NCBI RefSeq assembly: GCF_014192285.1
Contig: NZ_JACHXQ010000001.1
Span: 620,001 to 684,000 of the forward strand
Reading direction: 5' to 3'
DNA length: 64,000 nucleotides
DNA from: Halomonas fontilapidosi
GTDB taxonomy: Bacteria > Pseudomonadota > Gammaproteobacteria > Pseudomonadales > Halomonadaceae
Every line of letters starts with the position of its first letter. Position 1 is the stretch's first letter. A program made the translations under genes and the position numbers. This document shows, one piece after another, positions 45,746 through 53,992 of the stretch. The notes beneath the pieces were generated by a model that made no database searches, had not been told where the DNA came from, and saw nothing but the letters and a program-made list of their open reading frames with translations.

Positions 45746-46021
45746 CTAGCCGCCAGGGAGCTTCTTCAGCCATTCATCCGGGAGCAGGTTCATGGACATC
45801 AGGCTGGATAACCACGCGACCACGATATCGAAGATCCAGGCAGGGAGGTGCCGACATTGGCGCGGCAGGATGGCTTCTCGCTTGTTTCGGGTCGGGAGGG
45901 ATCGACGTATCTCACGCCTATCGACTACGGGCCGTAAAGGGGAAGGAATCGTCAGGCGAAAGTGGTATACGCCATAGGGAGTTCGAATCACGGGGGCAGG
46001 TTCAGGGTCATTGTGTATCAC
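45746..46021 (-). pseudogene. Remnant of a tyrosine-recombinase (integrase) gene, N-terminus only
   Basis: The 91-residue frame starts with GVYHFRLTIPSPLRP and RREIRRSLPTRNKREA, a pattern I associate with the N-terminal domain of phage-type integrases (YxFRxxVPxxLR...GRxEIRRSLxTxxxREA). After about residue 50 the sequence stops looking like an integrase and no core or catalytic Tyr domain is present anywhere near. It is best read as a truncated, decayed gene. It begins 70 bp beyond the 3' end of ffs on the same strand, as integrases often do next to an RNA-gene attachment site. The identification rests on ~40 residues. Confidence 0.55.
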
Positions 46022-46195: not shown

Positions 46196-46399
46196 ACCAC
46201 GGCAGGATGCTCGAGGCATCGCTCGCCCGATAGCGCTATATGCCGTCATCGAGCGAGCTGCACTATATCAATGCCCGGCCTCGGCCACAAGGGGCGACGC
46301 GGGTAACCCGGTTGGCCGCAGGCGCAGGGATGAGGAAGCGGCGTCGCTCGTGTATGGTATGCCAGTCATTTCCGCCACTGCCTATCACGGAGGCGCACC

Positions 46400-47623
46400 A
46401 TGAAGAAGGATCCGAACAAGGGCTACATTGCCCTGTTGGGCTGGAGCCTGAACGCTATCGAAGCCGCCGAGAACTTCGATCGACGCTATGTCGTGGTCGC
46501 CCCGGATTGGGCGGAAGAGTACTGTCAAAAGCACGATATCCCCTATGTGCCGTGGAACTTCGAGCGTCTCAATGACCGCTCGATGGAGATTGCCGAGACC
46601 CTCAAGGAAAAAGGCGTCGACGTGGCCATTCCGATGTTCGAGGAGACCGTGGAATGGGCGGGTGCCATCAACTCGGTGCTGCTCGACAATCCGCGCCTCT
46701 ACGGTCAATCCTTGCTGCTGCGCGACAAGGCACTGATGAAGCGCCGCGCCCAGCTGGGCGGCATCCGCGTCGGCATCTTCGAGGAGGCCCACGACAAGGA
46801 GGACGTCGTGCGTTTTCTCAAGCGGGTCAACCAGACCCTGCTCAAGCTCGATGGTGACCCCAACGACCCGATCCACCTCAAGGCGTTCGACAAGGCCGGT
46901 TGCCTGGGCCATCGGGTCATCCGCACGCCGGACGAGGTCGATACCATCCCCGAGGAGGAGTTTCCGGTGCTGATGGAATCGCACCTGGATGGCTGGGAAT
47001 TCGCCGTGGAGGCCTGGATCCACAACGGCAAGATCGTCTTCCTGAATATTTCCGAATACGTGACGCTGGGCTACTCGGTCTTCGTGCCGGCCTCGCCGGA
47101 GCTCGAGAAGTACCGCCCCCAGATCACCGCCCAGATCGAGAAGCTGATCAAGACCTTTGACATCGAGTTCGGCCTGATCCACCCCGAATACTTCGTCACC
47201 AACGACGGCGAGATGTACTTCGGCGAGGTGGCCTACCGCCCGCCGGGCTTCAAGGTCTTCGAACTGCTCGAGAGGGTCTACGGTTTCAATGCCTACCAGG
47301 CCTCGATGCTGGTCTTCGATCCCAAGTCCACGCATGACGAGGTCGAGGCCTTCTTCCCCAAGGAGGTGGTGGACGCCGATGGCTTCGCCGGCTGCTTCGG
47401 GGTCTATCCGCGCCGTCGCGTGGTCAGCAAGCTGGAGATTCCCGAGGAGGTCGAAGACGACCCCTACTTCGAGTCCCACGAGCTGACGCCGCCCATGGAG
47501 GAGACCGTCACCAAGCGGACTGCCTTCGGCACCCACTGGGGCCTGATCTACTTCAAGGGCGACGAGTCGGCGCGCATGAAGGAACTGCTCAAGCACATGG
47601 AAGAGCTTGATTTCTATGTCTGA
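46400..47623 (+). CDS. ATP-grasp domain ligase of unknown substrate
   Basis: A 407-residue cytoplasmic protein. The N-terminal ~110 residues form the pre-ATP-grasp Rossmann-like part (GYIALLGWSLNAIEAAENF), followed by the ATP-grasp fold with metal-ligand acidic residues in FPVLMESHLDGWEFAVEAW and DGEMYFGEVAYRPPGFK. Such enzymes join a carboxylate to an amine or similar group through an acyl-phosphate. GGAGG precedes the ATG. It is followed after 46 bp by a putative papain-fold protein and appears to form a two-gene unit with it. I cannot name the substrate; a peptide- or amino-acid-ligating role is suggested by the partner (inference). Confidence 0.8.
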   Translation: MKKDPNKGYIALLGWSLNAIEAAENFDRRYVVVAPDWAEEYCQKHDIPYVPWNFERLNDRSMEIAETLKEKGVDVAIPMFEETVEWAGAINSVLLDNPRLYGQSLLLRDKALMKRRAQLGGIRVGIFEEAHDKEDVVRFLKRVNQTLLKLDGDPNDPIHLKAFDKAGCLGHRVIRTPDEVDTIPEEEFPVLMESHLDGWEFAVEAWIHNGKIVFLNISEYVTLGYSVFVPASPELEKYRPQITAQIEKLIKTFDIEFGLIHPEYFVTNDGEMYFGEVAYRPPGFKVFELLERVYGFNAYQASMLVFDPKSTHDEVEAFFPKEVVDADGFAGCFGVYPRRRVVSKLEIPEEVEDDPYFESHELTPPMEETVTKRTAFGTHWGLIYFKGDESARMKELLKHMEELDFYV

Positions 47624-47669
47624 TACAGGCGTCATGGATTTTATGACAGCCTGACGACAAGGAGTCGGC

Positions 47670-49706
47670 GTGACTACGCCTCGAGATATGCAAGACGCCA
47701 GTACACCGCAACAGGCCAGCGACAAGCTCGCTGGCCTGCTCAAGAAACTGGATGACGCCATCAAACTGCTGGCAGAGGCGCCCGAGTTTGCCAAGCCGGG
47801 CAAGCTGCCCCGGGTTCTCGATACCGCCCGGCGGATCATGCTGCAGGAGGGCGGCTGCGAGGCCATCGAGCAGCGGGCCCGCAAACTGGAGGAGGCCGGG
47901 GTCTTTCGCGGTTCCGACTGGCAGACCCCCCAGTACCTGGTGCCCTCCCTGACCACCCATTCGCTCAAGAGCGCCAACGCCGACATCGTGGTGATCGAGG
48001 CGATCAGCGAATTGCGGATCCTCGCGGTGGCCAAGGGGGACTACCTGCATCCCCTGCTCTCCGAGGAGCAGGCCCACCATTACCTGACCCAGGTGATGGC
48101 GCTCAATCTCTGGCTGCTGTTCGGCGCCCCCACCGAGGCGGAACGCGAGACCCAGGGGCGACTGGCGCAGATTCCCCGCTACCTGTTCCAGCACCTGGCC
48201 GAGCGCATCGGCTACGAGCACGTGATCGACCGATTGATCACCGAAATCTGGCGGATCCTGCAGCAGCGGCCGATCCAGGTGGATACGATCAAGCAGATGA
48301 TCACCCAGATCGCTATCTGCCAGGCCAATCCGGAGATCGACCTGGGGGCCAGAGGCCAGGGGGCGGACCGTCTGGTCAGCTCGCTGTACGGTCCCACGCA
48401 CGCGTGCCGCGAGGATCCCGGCATCGAAACCTACCGCGAGCGCCTCTCGAGCATGGACAGCGGCGCCCTGCAGTACGAGGCGACCGGCTTCGCCCGGGCC
48501 ATGCATGACACCAGCCTGGTCTCGCCCTACCACGCCGTGCTGCTGCGTCACCTGCTCGATCACAGCGACCACCTGCTCGCCGAGGCCATGGGACTGTCGT
48601 CGACCGGACGCGACTGCCTGCTCTGCTATCGCGAGCTGGTGCACGCGCTGATCCGCGGGGCGGTCTACCCGACCACGCCCCAGGCGATCTATGGGCTGGC
48701 GCTGATGCTCGAGCGCGGCATCCTCTATCAGCCCCCGGTGGCCCCGGCCATGTGGCGCCAGCTGGGGCTCAGGCTATCGGACTGGTCCGAGGCGCGACTC
48801 AACCTGGCCTTCGGTGACAGTGCCTCGCCGCGCGCCCGGCTGCTGGAAGGGGTGCTGTGCATGCTCGGCCTGCCGCTGGGCGTGGGACAAGGCAACAACC
48901 CGACCTGCCAGTCCGCCCGCGCCCTGTCCATGTGGGCCTACAACGACCCCGACTACCTGTTGCAGATGGTCACCTGGGCCGCGCGTGACGACGAGATCAT
49001 CATGCACTTCGAGGGCAATCCCCTCTCCTCCATGGCCAGCCTCTCCGGCGTCGCCAAGGAGTTACCGATAGATCTCGATCCGGTCTCCTTGCTGGTGGTG
49101 CCGCACCTGGATCGCATCTATGCCGAGATGGGACGACGCTGTCTCGATCGCGAAGGCGACCCGCATCGCTGGGTCAATCCGGAATTTCACGGCTGGTGGT
49201 CGGGCCGCGGCTTTCGCATCAACGTCGATGTAACCACCGGCAAGCTGCACGAGCTGGACGACTTCCTGCGCCATTTCTATGCCAGCTACCACCCTTATTA
49301 CAACGGCAACCAGCCGCTGATTCACCCCCAGCCAGCCGGCATCGCGGTGACCGACAGCGCGGCTCGTTTTATCGGCTGGCACGCCATTACGCTGCTGCGC
49401 GTCACGCTCGATCCCAGCGATACCATGCGCGTTTACTTCTACAACCCCAACAATGACAGCGGTCAGGACTGGGGGGATGGTATCGAGGTCAGCACCGCCG
49501 GCAATGGCGAGCGCTTCGGCGAGTCCTCACTGCCCTTCGAGCAGTTCGCCTCGCGCCTCTACATCTTCCACTACGACCCGCTGGAACGCGGCGAACTGGC
49601 CAAGATCACCCAGGAGGAGCTCGATCGGGTAACCGGCTATATCTACCGCAGCTGGGGGGCCGACCGGATTCCTCCTGGGGAGCTGCAGGCCGACGAGGGG
49701 CCGTAA
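47670..49706 (+). CDS. Conserved 678-residue protein with papain-like Gln/Cys/His/Asn pattern
   Basis: No signal peptide or membrane segment, so cytoplasmic. Residues 1-380 are mainly helical. Cys413 lies in GQGNNPTCQSARALSMW, with Gln407 six residues before it; His571 is in RFIGWHAITLLRV; Asn592 follows in VYFYNPNNDSGQDWG. Papain has Gln19, Cys25, His159 and Asn175, so order, Gln-Cys spacing and the HA[IV] and hydrophobic-strand-then-Asn context all agree. I infer a C-terminal papain-like amidase, peptidase or transglutaminase-like domain. The start is GTG with AAGGAG upstream. I do not recognise a named family. Pairing with an ATP-grasp ligase suggests a build-and-cleave system for an amide or isopeptide bond. 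Confidence 0.7.
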   Translation: MTTPRDMQDASTPQQASDKLAGLLKKLDDAIKLLAEAPEFAKPGKLPRVLDTARRIMLQEGGCEAIEQRARKLEEAGVFRGSDWQTPQYLVPSLTTHSLKSANADIVVIEAISELRILAVAKGDYLHPLLSEEQAHHYLTQVMALNLWLLFGAPTEAERETQGRLAQIPRYLFQHLAERIGYEHVIDRLITEIWRILQQRPIQVDTIKQMITQIAICQANPEIDLGARGQGADRLVSSLYGPTHACREDPGIETYRERLSSMDSGALQYEATGFARAMHDTSLVSPYHAVLLRHLLDHSDHLLAEAMGLSSTGRDCLLCYRELVHALIRGAVYPTTPQAIYGLALMLERGILYQPPVAPAMWRQLGLRLSDWSEARLNLAFGDSASPRARLLEGVLCMLGLPLGVGQGNNPTCQSARALSMWAYNDPDYLLQMVTWAARDDEIIMHFEGNPLSSMASLSGVAKELPIDLDPVSLLVVPHLDRIYAEMGRRCLDREGDPHRWVNPEFHGWWSGRGFRINVDVTTGKLHELDDFLRHFYASYHPYYNGNQPLIHPQPAGIAVTDSAARFIGWHAITLLRVTLDPSDTMRVYFYNPNNDSGQDWGDGIEVSTAGNGERFGESSLPFEQFASRLYIFHYDPLERGELAKITQEELDRVTGYIYRSWGADRIPPGELQADEGP

Positions 49707-49723: not shown

Positions 49724-50488
49724 ATGCAGCGCCTCGACCAGCTACTCCTCTCCCAGGGCCTGGCCCGTTCACGGACCCGCGCCCAGCGGTTGATCCGCCA
49801 CGGACGGGTCCGGCTGGCCGATGGCGGCATGCCGCTGAAGAAACCCGGCGAGAAGTTTCCCGAGGCGACGCGCCTGACGGTGGACGAGGATCCCGAGGAG
49901 CGCTATGTGTCCCGGGCAGGCCTCAAGCTGGAGGCGCTGATCGAGACCCTCGGTCTGACGCTCGCGGGCCGCCTGGTGCTCGACGTCGGCCAGTCCACCG
50001 GCGGCTTCACCGACTGCGCCCTGCGCTTTGGGGCCCGCCATGTGATCGGCGTGGAGGTCGGCCATGATCAGCTCGACCCCTCGCTGCGCAACGATCCCCG
50101 CGTCACCTGCCTCGAGGGACTCAACGCGCGCACCATGACCGGCGAGCCGCGGCTGAGAGCCGCCTTCGATGCGCTGGGGGCGACGGGCCCGGACCTGGCC
50201 GTAATGGATGTCTCCTTCATCTCCCAGACGCTGATACTGCCCGACCTCGCCGACCTGCTGCCGTCGGGGGGCGAGCTGCTGAGCCTGGTCAAGCCACAAT
50301 TCGAGCTCGGGCCGGGCGGCGTCAACGCGCGCGGTCTGGTGGCCGACCCCGAGCGCTATGCCGAGGTAGAGACCCGGTTGCGCGAATGCTGTACCGGGCT
50401 CGGCGTCGAGATCCTGCATTGGCAGCCGAGCCCTTTGCTGGGCGGTGACGGCAACCGCGAGTTCCTGCTCCACGCTATCAAGCGCTGA
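49724..50488 (+). CDS. tlyA: TlyA-family rRNA 2'-O-methyltransferase / hemolysin A-like
   Basis: A 254-residue protein with an N-terminal S4 RNA-binding domain (QRLDQLLLSQGLARSRTRAQRLI) and an FtsJ-like SAM domain (LVLDVGQSTGGFTDCALRFG, AVMDVSFIS, LVKPQFE). The catalytic K-D-K-E tetrad is compatible with those segments. TlyA methylates cytidines of 16S and/or 23S rRNA and determines capreomycin sensitivity in mycobacteria. It begins 17 bp after the putative papain-like gene, so it may be co-transcribed with it. Confidence 0.92.
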   Translation: MQRLDQLLLSQGLARSRTRAQRLIRHGRVRLADGGMPLKKPGEKFPEATRLTVDEDPEERYVSRAGLKLEALIETLGLTLAGRLVLDVGQSTGGFTDCALRFGARHVIGVEVGHDQLDPSLRNDPRVTCLEGLNARTMTGEPRLRAAFDALGATGPDLAVMDVSFISQTLILPDLADLLPSGGELLSLVKPQFELGPGGVNARGLVADPERYAEVETRLRECCTGLGVEILHWQPSPLLGGDGNREFLLHAIKR

Positions 50489-50530: not shown

Positions 50531-53500
50531 TCAACGCCCGGCATCGCCGTCACCGCCATCGAGATCGCCCGGATCCCCACCGGCGCCGGGTGGCGGATGC
50601 TCGGCAGGCACCGACGAACCGGTAGCGATATGCTGGACCCTTGCCGTCTCGCCGCCGGCGCGGTGCAACCAGACATCAAGCTGATTGAAGGCGATGTCGA
50701 TGCCGTGCTCGGCGAACAGCTCACCCACCCGGCAGTTGATCTCGTCGGTGGCAAAGAGACGATCGCCGAGGCTGTTGACGAAGATGCGCAGCTCGAAGTC
50801 CAGCGTGCTCTCGCCATAGCTCATGAAGAAGACCTGGGGCTCGGGATCCGCCAGCACCCGCGCATTCTCGTCGGCGGCCTGTCTCAGCAGGCGATGCACC
50901 AGGCGATGATCCGAGCCGTAGGCAACACCGTAGCTCAGCACGACCCGCGTGACCGTGTCGGAGAGCGACCAGTTGATCAACTGATCGGTGATGAAGGTCT
51001 TGTTGGGAATGATGATCTCCTTGCGGTCGAAATCAGTCACCGTGGTGGCGCGAATGCGGATCTTGCTTACCGTGCCGGTGAGGTTGCCCAGGGTGATGGT
51101 GTCGCCGATGCGCACCGGCCGCTCGAAAAGGATGATCAACCCCGAGACGAAATTGGCAAAGATTTCCTGCAGGCCAAAGCCCAGCCCTACACCCAGCGCC
51201 GCGACCAGCCACTGCAGTTTGCTCCAGGAAACCCCCAGGGTCCCCAGCGCGGTCACCACGCCCCCGCCGACAATGGCGTAGGCGAGCAGCGAGCTAATGG
51301 CATAGGCACTGCCCTGCTTGAGCTCCAGGCGGGACAGCACGCTCACCTCGAGCAGACCCGGCAGGTTGCGTGCCATCATCAGGGTCAGCACCACCACCAG
51401 CAGGGCGGTGATGATATCGGCCACCGAGACCATGCTCGCCACCGCCTCGGCCGCCTGGCCCTCCCCCGGCTCGATGAGGGTGACCTGTTCCAGATAGCTG
51501 AAGACGGAGAGCAGGTCGGACCACACCAGGTAGAGCACCAGAATGAAGCCGATCAGCAGGATCAGCTTGGAGAGGCGCAGCGACTGCTGGTTGACCTGCT
51601 CCATGTCCAGCGGTGGCTCCTCGACCACCTCGAGGCTACCCTCGGCGCCCTCCTGTGCCTGGGCACGCCGCCGCGCCAAGGCGCGGCGATAGGCCAGACG
51701 GCGTGCCGCCACCGCCAGCCCACGAATCACCGTGGCTTCCACCAGGACCCAAAGCCCGAGCAGATAAAGCGTGATCACGAAGCGCCCCAGCAGGCTGAGT
51801 GCCGTGTATTCGTAGCCATAGATAATCAATCCGGCCAGCACCAGGGGCACCAGCGCAATGACCAGGCCGATGATCAGCCGGAATAGCTTGACCCCGAAGA
51901 AGGGCACATGGGCCAGGATCAGCTTGCTCATCACCAGGCTCATGGCCAGCAGGCCACTCAGCAGCAGGACCAGGCCCAGCGGGCGTTGATTCAAGGCGAT
52001 CGCCGCATCCCGGGCCAGCGGGCCGATCAACAGCACCGGCACCAGGGCCACGCCCAGCCACATCAGCCAACGGCGCAGAGCCGCCGCATAGCTGGGAGGC
52101 CAGTAGAAGTGTCGGGTCGCCACCCCACCCTGAAACAGCAGGTTGCGCGCCCAGGCAATCACGGCCCAGGCCAGGGCCAGATGAAGCAGCGCATGGCCGA
52201 TGCCGCGGGTCATCCCTTCGGCGCCCATCAGCAGTGCCAGACCGAGGGCCAGCACACACAGCGGGCCGGGCAGGGCCAGCAGGGCATTGAGTGCCACCGC
52301 CTGCGGCGTGTGTCCCTGGGAATCCCGCTTGAGCAGGCCGACCTCCTGATGCAGGCGTGCCAGGTGCTCGCGGATCCGCCGTTGACCGGCCAGCAGCCCC
52401 AGCGCCACCAGCAGCACCGGCAGGCCGAACAGGGCCCGGGCATTCGGCGGCCGCCAGTTCGTCGGCAATATCGTTCGCCACTCCCCCTCGCGCCACTCCA
52501 TGGCGAGGTTCTCGGGCAGATGGTTGAGCCAGGCCAGTCCGACGGGACGGGTATTGGGAATCCAGAACAGCTGCTCGTCGATGGTGGCGCGCAGCTCCTG
52601 GCTGGTAGCCAGAAGCTGCTGCTGGTTGAGCTGCAGGTCAATGGCTGCACTGAGCATCTCGCCATAGGCCTGTTCCAGCTGGTCAACCAGCTCACGACGG
52701 GCCTGGTAGAGCGCGAGCAGAGAATCGATCAGGGCAGGAGATGCCTGGGCGTCGGCCTCCTCGATCCGCTGCCGCGCCAGCTGCTCGCCCTCGCGCAACT
52801 GATCACGCTGTCGACCCAGCTCGAACTGCTTGAGACGCAGGTCGGCGATCTCGTCCTGCAGGCCTCGTCGCGCCTCCACCCGCGGCAACATCTGACGCTG
52901 CTCACGCAGGATTCTCGCCAGCAGTATGCTGCCGCGGATGGCGTCGATCTGTTCGTTGAGGCTGCGCTGCAGCTGACGAACCCGGTCGAACTGGCGACGC
53001 ACCTCGAGCCCCTCCCGAACCAGACGATTGGCCCGGTCGGTGGCGCGCAGCAGCTCCAGACTCATGGTGCGGTTGATCTCCCGGGCCCTGCGCACGACGG
53101 GATGACCGATTACCCCGCCTGCCTCGTCGCTTACCGCCTCGGCGATGGCCTGTTCGGACTCCTCGCGACGGCGTCGATCGATGATCCCCTGAAGCGTGGT
53201 CAGACGGGCCTCCTGGCTGGCGACCTGGCGCTCCAGCAGGTCGCGGTGCTCCTGGTCCAGCTCCCTCAGGCGGGTGTTGGTGGCCAGTTCACGCTGGTGA
53301 AGCTGCAGGGTCTGCTCCGCCAGCTCGCGTTCGATGCGCAGTTGCCAGCGCCGGGGGTCATCCTCGGCAACCTGACCGGCCGCCAGCTCCTCCAGCTGGC
53401 GGCGATTCTCGTCGGCCCGCTGCATTGCCTCACCGATGGCCTGCTGTGCTCGCTCCGGCAGGGTCTGGGCACTCAGCAGCCGAGCCGAGACCTCGGCGAG

Positions 53501-53992
53501 GCGATCCTGAAAGCCCGATAGCGCCTCCTGGGCCTCCTTGCGGCGCTCTTCCAGCGCCTCGAGGGAGAGCGCCTCCAACTCGTCAAGGCTCTCCTCCTGG
53601 TCGGTCTGCTGCATGTCGCGAAGCTCGCGTTGCAGACGCTTGAGCTCCTGAGGCGCCTCCTGAACGCGCGTCTCGAGGCGTGACAACTGCTCCCTGACCG
53701 CGGTCAGACGCTGAGCGGCGTCGAGGGCAGCGTTCAGTGCGTCGATGTCTCGCTGTGCACCCTCGCTGGGCGTCTCGCCCTCGGCCGGCTTGCGCTCGTC
53801 CAGTCGAGACTCGATCTCCTCGCGTGACGGCAACTTAGGAGACAACGACGCCTCCGATGCACTCTCCTGAGCCAACGTGGGTGGCGCGACCACCAGCCAG
53901 CTCAGCGCGCTCAGCAGCACGCTCAGCAACAACGGAAAGAGGAGGCGCCGCGAGGCAATGCTCAAGCGACAAAGATGTACAGCGACATTCAA
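50531..53992 (-). CDS. mscK: MscK/KefA-type large mechanosensitive channel
   Basis: A 1153-residue inner-membrane protein. A signal-like segment (~15-42) is followed by a long periplasmic coiled-coil region (to about residue 500, rich in Glu/Gln/Arg/Leu), ~11 membrane segments and a C-terminal MscS domain with WLVAALGVGLGFGLQEIFAN (pore helix) and ERPVRIGDTITLGN (beta domain). It opens on hypo-osmotic shock and, for MscK, in response to external K+. This fits a salt-adapted organism. It is divergent from pldA across a 146-bp gap. Confidence 0.93.
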   Translation of the reverse strand: MNVAVHLCRLSIASRRLLFPLLLSVLLSALSWLVVAPPTLAQESASEASLSPKLPSREEIESRLDERKPAEGETPSEGAQRDIDALNAALDAAQRLTAVREQLSRLETRVQEAPQELKRLQRELRDMQQTDQEESLDELEALSLEALEERRKEAQEALSGFQDRLAEVSARLLSAQTLPERAQQAIGEAMQRADENRRQLEELAAGQVAEDDPRRWQLRIERELAEQTLQLHQRELATNTRLRELDQEHRDLLERQVASQEARLTTLQGIIDRRRREESEQAIAEAVSDEAGGVIGHPVVRRAREINRTMSLELLRATDRANRLVREGLEVRRQFDRVRQLQRSLNEQIDAIRGSILLARILREQRQMLPRVEARRGLQDEIADLRLKQFELGRQRDQLREGEQLARQRIEEADAQASPALIDSLLALYQARRELVDQLEQAYGEMLSAAIDLQLNQQQLLATSQELRATIDEQLFWIPNTRPVGLAWLNHLPENLAMEWREGEWRTILPTNWRPPNARALFGLPVLLVALGLLAGQRRIREHLARLHQEVGLLKRDSQGHTPQAVALNALLALPGPLCVLALGLALLMGAEGMTRGIGHALLHLALAWAVIAWARNLLFQGGVATRHFYWPPSYAAALRRWLMWLGVALVPVLLIGPLARDAAIALNQRPLGLVLLLSGLLAMSLVMSKLILAHVPFFGVKLFRLIIGLVIALVPLVLAGLIIYGYEYTALSLLGRFVITLYLLGLWVLVEATVIRGLAVAARRLAYRRALARRRAQAQEGAEGSLEVVEEPPLDMEQVNQQSLRLSKLILLIGFILVLYLVWSDLLSVFSYLEQVTLIEPGEGQAAEAVASMVSVADIITALLVVVLTLMMARNLPGLLEVSVLSRLELKQGSAYAISSLLAYAIVGGGVVTALGTLGVSWSKLQWLVAALGVGLGFGLQEIFANFVSGLIILFERPVRIGDTITLGNLTGTVSKIRIRATTVTDFDRKEIIIPNKTFITDQLINWSLSDTVTRVVLSYGVAYGSDHRLVHRLLRQAADENARVLADPEPQVFFMSYGESTLDFELRIFVNSLGDRLFATDEINCRVGELFAEHGIDIAFNQLDVWLHRAGGETARVQHIATGSSVPAEHPPPGAGGDPGDLDGGDGDAGR

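Follow-up and report, generated by a model that had tools for sequence, protein, structure and literature searches.

What do an ATP-grasp ligase and a papain-like protein accomplish together when their genes are kept side by side in bacteria? The question is raised by a locus of Halomonas fontilapidosi contained in a stretch of 64,000 nucleotides (contig NZ_JACHXQ010000001.1, positions 620,001 to 684,000 of the forward strand), which is referred to here as the window and which corresponds to G000:C1:620001-684000 in our numbering, G000 being the organism's own genome. The locus encodes an ATP-grasp protein followed by a protein for which the preliminary description had proposed a papain fold. 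We consider it slightly more likely than not that one product is a ligase which forms an amide bond in the cytoplasm and the other an amidase which cleaves that bond, with a distinct deacetylase related to the histone deacetylases (HDACs) as a likely third member. The data delineate a real and conserved two-gene system with a new third partner, for which such chemistry is plausible, and the first interpretation of the locus is, taken as a whole, partly supported. The open literature, searched through titles and the beginnings of abstracts, yielded no description of the pair, the trio or a three-enzyme tagging system of this kind; a 2009 survey of amidoligases by Iyer and colleagues, which lay outside that search, may mention a related operon.

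The predicted papain-fold protein

The 678-amino-acid protein has no sequence match in Pfam, NCBIfam, PADLOC or the Protein Data Bank (PDB), and 59 of its aligned homologues gave weak and scattered matches against Pfam, the best with an expect value (E) of 0.0079. Its homologues number at least 2,528, and the closest of them, among the matches listed, come from Halomonas. The residues Gln407, Cys413, His571 and Asn592 are identical in all 382 sequences of an alignment restricted to proteins of at least 600 amino acids (shorter fragments were dropped, and some genes occur twice), which amounts to 318 of 318 distinct core sequences; the same holds for 169 of 169 once sequences at least 95% alike are removed, the most distant being 43% identical. 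Because the four residues are invariant down to this level of identity, the papain order that the preliminary description had pointed out is more than a chance motif, and a search for homologues without Cys413 or His571 found none, both being kept in all 318 distinct sequences.

The order Gln, Cys, His, Asn and the Gln-Cys spacing of six are those of the papain-like peptidases of clan CA, and the secondary structure follows the same layout in an AlphaFold2 model (predicted local distance difference test score, pLDDT, 83.9; predicted template modelling score 0.81), in which the cysteine stands at the start of a helix, the histidine on a strand and the asparagine past the next strand. The model divides the protein into a helical N-terminal part (about residues 13-400) and a predicted papain-fold domain (about 374-637), and a fold search with it returned papain-clan enzymes, namely calpain and staphopain, as the best matches over about residues 374-637.

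The ATP-grasp protein

The 407-amino-acid protein matches the Pfam family ATP-grasp_4 (PF13535) by a small margin (28.2 bits against a Pfam cut-off of 27), and the family is matched by 20 of 20 close homologues at E<=0.01. Its closest solved relatives are L-amino-acid ligases, the first being 4wd3, which we take to be RizA (E 5e-5), and the second 3vot (BL00235; E 0.48), and an E-x-x-x-R motif is common to the ATP-grasp protein and these enzymes in the alignment. Among 238 homologues of at least 380 amino acids, some genes being represented twice, 221 are distinct by their core region, and K110, E204, E263, E276 and R280, which by analogy are presumably ATP and metal ligands, are identical in 221 of 221, an invariance that says less because these sequences are all at least 75% alike. 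Modelling of this protein failed (pLDDT 44.8).

Pairing of the two genes across genomes

The two genes occur together in every genome checked for both that had either, and they usually lie side by side. Co-occurrence, on which the preliminary description had made its proposal depend, was found throughout: among 398 genomes of Pseudomonadota, the papain gene is present in 11 and the ATP-grasp gene in the same 11 (Fisher p ~1e-21, ignoring shared ancestry); in a class sample of 369 genomes, all 13 that carry the papain gene also carry the ATP-grasp gene, as established for two of them, G000 and G050, by the search of the 398 genomes. A scan of public genomes returned at least 585 relatives, and at 72 of the 80 best loci, whose gene context was examined (the named loci, with L numbers), the ATP-grasp gene lies directly upstream of the papain gene. 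The adjacency holds in Marinobacter, Alcanivorax, Haliea, Guyparkeria, Marinimicrobium and Saccharospirillum, although these genera have few of the remaining neighbours in common. The genomes of the eight loci that have no adjacent ligase gene all carry a full-length ATP-grasp gene elsewhere (79-81% identical), and at four of these loci (L079, L073, L077 and L084, of the Vreelandella group) short pieces of an ATP-grasp gene lie, judging from coordinates, just upstream of the papain gene.

A redundant set of 134 adjacent loci comprises 109 with the tandem order ligase-papain (14-346 base pairs, bp, apart; median 50), 9 with the order papain-ligase, 11 divergent and 5 convergent arrangements; the order varies among loci, and the link has therefore been kept through rearrangement. 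In genome G670 the two genes stand 57 kilobases (kb) apart. A second, diverged pair is present in the genome of H. fontilapidosi itself (G000:C1:591478-594832; loci L114 and L002), ~76 kb upstream of the locus described here, with a papain protein 53% identical and an ATP-grasp protein 80% identical to those of the window; here the papain gene comes first, directly after a gene for an alpha/beta hydrolase (Hydrolase_4). Multiplication of the papain gene is seen in Marinobacter, where 53 of the 61 genomes searched are papain-positive and 8 negative, with up to five papain-family matches per genome; the matches of one positive genome (G798) are two pieces only. All five papain-family genes of Marinobacter G070 are full-length, and some of the multiplied Marinobacter copies have no adjoining ATP-grasp gene.

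Near-obligate pairing is as compatible with successive reactions as with opposing ones, and both enzymes might instead work in the same biosynthetic direction, the ATP-grasp enzyme making an acyl or peptidyl intermediate that a papain-fold transamidase transfers. Papain-fold thiol enzymes do include transglutaminases and acyltransferases, according to the accessible part of PMC10318531. The invariant, papain-spaced Gln, Cys, His and Asn and the matches to calpain and staphopain are, however, typical of hydrolases, and although neither feature excludes transfer, we regard a shared biosynthetic direction as unlikely.

A likely third partner of the HDAC type

When neighbouring genes from distant lineages were clustered, an HDAC-like gene stood out, whose products at loci L120, L217 and L161 match the Pfam family Hist_deacetyl. 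The gene adjoins the pair at L093 (119 bp), L120 (3 bp, convergent), L155 (10 bp) and L159 (61 bp), lies between the two pair genes at L161, and is found beside the pair in 4 of the 12 GTDB families whose gene context was read (f7, f227, f242 and f253) as well as in one metagenome-assembled genome (MAG) of unknown family. Its distribution follows that of the pair. Among the 398 genomes, 9 of the 11 with the pair give the subfamily a score of 549 bits or more, whereas the remaining 387, none of which has it, do not exceed 257.1 bits. A second set of 25 genomes, for two of which (G815 and G816) the ATP-grasp gene alone had been confirmed beforehand, contains the gene at 334 bits or more in 22, the exceptions being G548 together with G395 and G016, the last two being shared with the larger set and identical with its two misses. 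In Marinobacter, the gene accompanies 42 of the 53 papain-positive genomes and none of the 8 papain-negative ones, two of which are less than 85% complete (Fisher p 2.6e-5, ignoring shared ancestry). The genome of H. fontilapidosi carries it at G000:C2:496301-497380, unlinked to the pair. Across the genomes searched, the pair occurs without the deacetylase and the deacetylase was never seen without the pair, an asymmetry which suggests that the deacetylase acts on the pair's product.

The HDAC catalytic residues (two His, Asp-His-Asp and EGGY) are retained in 25 of 25 distinct sequences, 26 having been aligned; these motifs mark classical zinc-dependent deacylases, as set out in the accessible part of PMC11532494. 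The PDB relatives of the protein are HDAC6 (388 bits, in two stretches), HDAC15 (233 bits) and HdaH (214 bits), followed more weakly by HDAC10 (162 bits) and acetylpolyamine aminohydrolase (117 bits). A placement among the bacterial polyamine deacetylases of cluster 4 was tried and rejected, the three strongest relatives all scoring above acetylpolyamine aminohydrolase. The third gene represents a distinct subfamily of HDAC-like deacetylases and likely a new partner of the pair. At 5 of the 80 named loci (L044, L054, L055, L068 and L087), the pair is preceded, some kb upstream, by another gene of the HDAC family, which shares 35-39% identity with the third partner.

The tracking of the pair by the deacetylase also bears on the view that the papain-fold protein is a regulatory protease, which would cleave or control the ATP-grasp enzyme or another protein, with no bond shared between the two. 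A large helical part joined to a calpain-like catalytic domain would suit such a protease, as would the excess of papain-family matches over ligase copies in two of the three Marinobacter genomes searched for both (5 to 2 in G070 and 4 to 2 in G174, but 3 to 3 in G138). We hold it to be highly improbable all the same, for it leaves unexplained both the deacetylase subfamily that follows the pair and the ligase that is never seen without the papain gene in the 398 genomes.

Neighbouring genes and a possible link to polyamines

In two Marinobacter genomes, G138 (L122:4941-10867) and G174 (L115:8283-14458), a papain paralogue follows an operon resembling the putrescine transporter operon potFGHI (PotF 415 and 420 bits, PotG 542, PotH 443, PotI 434; solved polyamine transport proteins 421); each Pot score is below the NCBIfam equivalog cut-off, and that of PotG is above the potA subfamily cut-off. 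In a MAG of Saccharospirillum (L100), both genes of the pair come after an ATP-binding cassette (ABC) operon in which one product weakly resembles PotD (91 bits against a cut-off of 582). These neighbours raise the possibility of a polyamine cycle in the style of glutathionylspermidine, in which the ligase would couple putrescine or spermidine to a glutamyl or peptidyl group, the amidase would release it and the HDAC-like enzyme would deacetylate polyamines. Glutathionylspermidine synthetase/amidase (GspSA) is a known cycle of ligase and cysteine amidase acting on spermidine, as described in the accessible part of PMC6272389, and one PDB relative of the third gene, HDAC10, deacetylates polyamines. 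Against this, a gene for PotH or PotI is found no more than 1.5 kb away in just 6 of the 22 genomes that carry orthologues of the pot-linked paralogue, and the transporter link therefore looks like that of one clade; no polyamine gene is among the scanned neighbours of the pair in the window; HDAC6, HDAC15 and HdaH outscore both HDAC10 and acetylpolyamine aminohydrolase; and PMC11532494, in its accessible part, puts the bacterial polyamine deacetylases in another cluster, although some sub-clusters of cluster 1 are annotated as ApaH. We rank the polyamine cycle as the first rival, and an unlikely one.

The features of the locus are collected in Table 1. The preliminary description had placed two open reading frames of 407 and 678 amino acids here, 46 bp apart, and both are confirmed. 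A Shine-Dalgarno-like sequence, found by eye, precedes each gene (GGAGG at 46389-46393 and AAGGAG in the gap between the genes), and the annotated length of some homologues of the papain-fold protein is 672 amino acids, which a start at codon 7 would fit.

Table 1. Features of the ligase-papain locus and its surroundings in the window
Feature	Position	Strand	Basis
ATP-grasp ligase gene, 407 amino acids	46400..47623	+	Open reading frame call; Pfam ATP-grasp_4; PDB 4wd3 match
Gap between the two genes, 46 bp	47624..47669	+	AAGGAG at 47659-47664
Papain-fold protein gene, 678 amino acids	47670..49706	+	Open reading frame; sequence searches without family match; AlphaFold2 model
Gln407 codon, predicted oxyanion-hole residue	48888..48890	+	318/318 distinct homologues
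Cys413 codon, predicted nucleophile, start of helix 413-425	48906..48908	+	318/318; helix from model
His571 codon, on strand 569-580	49380..49382	+	318/318; strand from model
Asn592 codon, directly after strand 586-591	49443..49445	+	318/318; strand from model
91-amino-acid open reading frame with DUF6538 domain	45746..46021	-	
S4/FtsJ methyltransferase gene	49724..50488	+	
MscS-type channel gene	50531..53992		

The methyltransferase gene, which starts 18 bases past the end of the papain gene, is retained as a neighbour mainly in Halomonadaceae among the best 80 loci. The small reading frame with the DUF6538 domain, which we take to be the N-terminal part of some integrases, is perhaps an integrase remnant; a search for tRNA genes across the window found none. 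Genes for MscS-type channels of 275-279 amino acids lie 30-126 bp from the pair at L094:2712-3536, L099:10087-10917 and L104:5816-6652, and in the Halomonadaceae loci of the MscS cluster the channel gene is no more than ~2 kb off on the opposite strand; the window has such a gene as well, and these neighbours could point to osmotic stress. Guyparkeria and GTDB family f250 have genes for patatin-like phospholipases within a few kb of the pair, or of an ATP-grasp gene that stands alone (L151-L153, L105, L111, L214, L215 and L218).

Proposed mechanism and significance

The formation and cleavage of an amide bond by the pair, as suggested at the outset, we infer from the protein families, the conserved residues and the co-distribution of the genes; binding of the target by the helical half of the papain-fold protein, likewise suggested there, is a conjecture. 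According to this proposal, an acyl phosphate would arise when the ATP-grasp enzyme activates a carboxylate, which it would then couple to an amine, the carboxylate being predicted to belong to an amino acid or a short peptide because the ATP-grasp relatives are L-amino-acid ligases. The papain-fold enzyme, with Cys413, His571 and Asn592 as its putative catalytic residues and Gln407 in the oxyanion hole, would release the added group, its large helical part serving as a docking platform, and the deacetylase would work on an amine or a lysine that belongs to this target or to the product. Either a protein or an amine metabolite may be the target, a protein or peptide being slightly more likely because of the helical platform and the resemblance of the third gene to lysine deacetylases.

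The window member of a papain-fold family with at least 2,528 homologues carries no domain name in Pfam, NCBIfam or PADLOC, and the label of its partner is the generic ATP-grasp; linking three poorly annotated genes makes of them a single module that can be tested. With a protein as target, the module would constitute a new reversible modification in bacteria; with a polyamine or some other amine, it would mean that the glutathionylspermidine cycle has been arrived at a second time, independently.

Comparison with known systems

The L-amino-acid ligases represented by 4wd3 and 3vot are the closest solved relatives of the ATP-grasp protein, at low similarity, and we know of no papain-fold partner for them. 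In other systems an ATP-grasp enzyme is accompanied by a protease. RimK, a glutamate ligase of the ATP-grasp type, is paired with RimB, a protease by which the residues that were added to the protein are taken off again, as described in the accessible parts of PMC11957791 and PMC12239564. RimB is, however, a retropepsin-like aspartic protease, whereas the present partner is papain-like; membership in the RimK/RimB system was rejected, ATP-grasp_4 being the sole Pfam match of the ligase and the partner having papain-type residues and no Pfam match. The Rlo operon of Pseudomonas aeruginosa likewise encodes an ATP-grasp protein together with a protease and a protein of the transglutaminase fold, but its proteases are secreted aspartic proteases and its transglutaminase is an inactive membrane protein, and no papain-fold hydrolase of the present kind is named in the accessible part of PMC12239564.

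The likeness to GspSA lies in the combination of ATP-dependent amide synthesis with a cysteine amidase that reverses the same bond (PMC6272389, accessible part). GspSA is one fused protein that consists of a CHAP amidase and its own synthetase domain, whereas the present system consists of two separate proteins and is set further apart by papain-type residues and by its large helical part. Membership in the GspSA family was accordingly rejected: neither protein has a CHAP or GSP-synthetase Pfam match at E<=0.1, and the genes are two.

Tubulin tyrosine ligase is an ATP-grasp enzyme, and the tubulin code, in which this ligase, the papain-like vasohibin that undoes its work and HDAC6 share one target, offers an analogy, of logic only. 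The accessible part of PMC10318531 describes vasohibin as a papain-like cysteine peptidase. The ATP-grasp and peptidase families of the tubulin code are other than those of the present system, and it is unlikely, though conceivable by this analogy, that the three genes form a bacterial counterpart, in which the ATP-grasp enzyme would tag a cytoplasmic protein with an amino acid or a peptide, the papain-fold enzyme, docking by its own helical platform, would erase the tag and a dedicated HDAC6-like enzyme, dependent on the pair, would clear lysine acyl groups on the same target.

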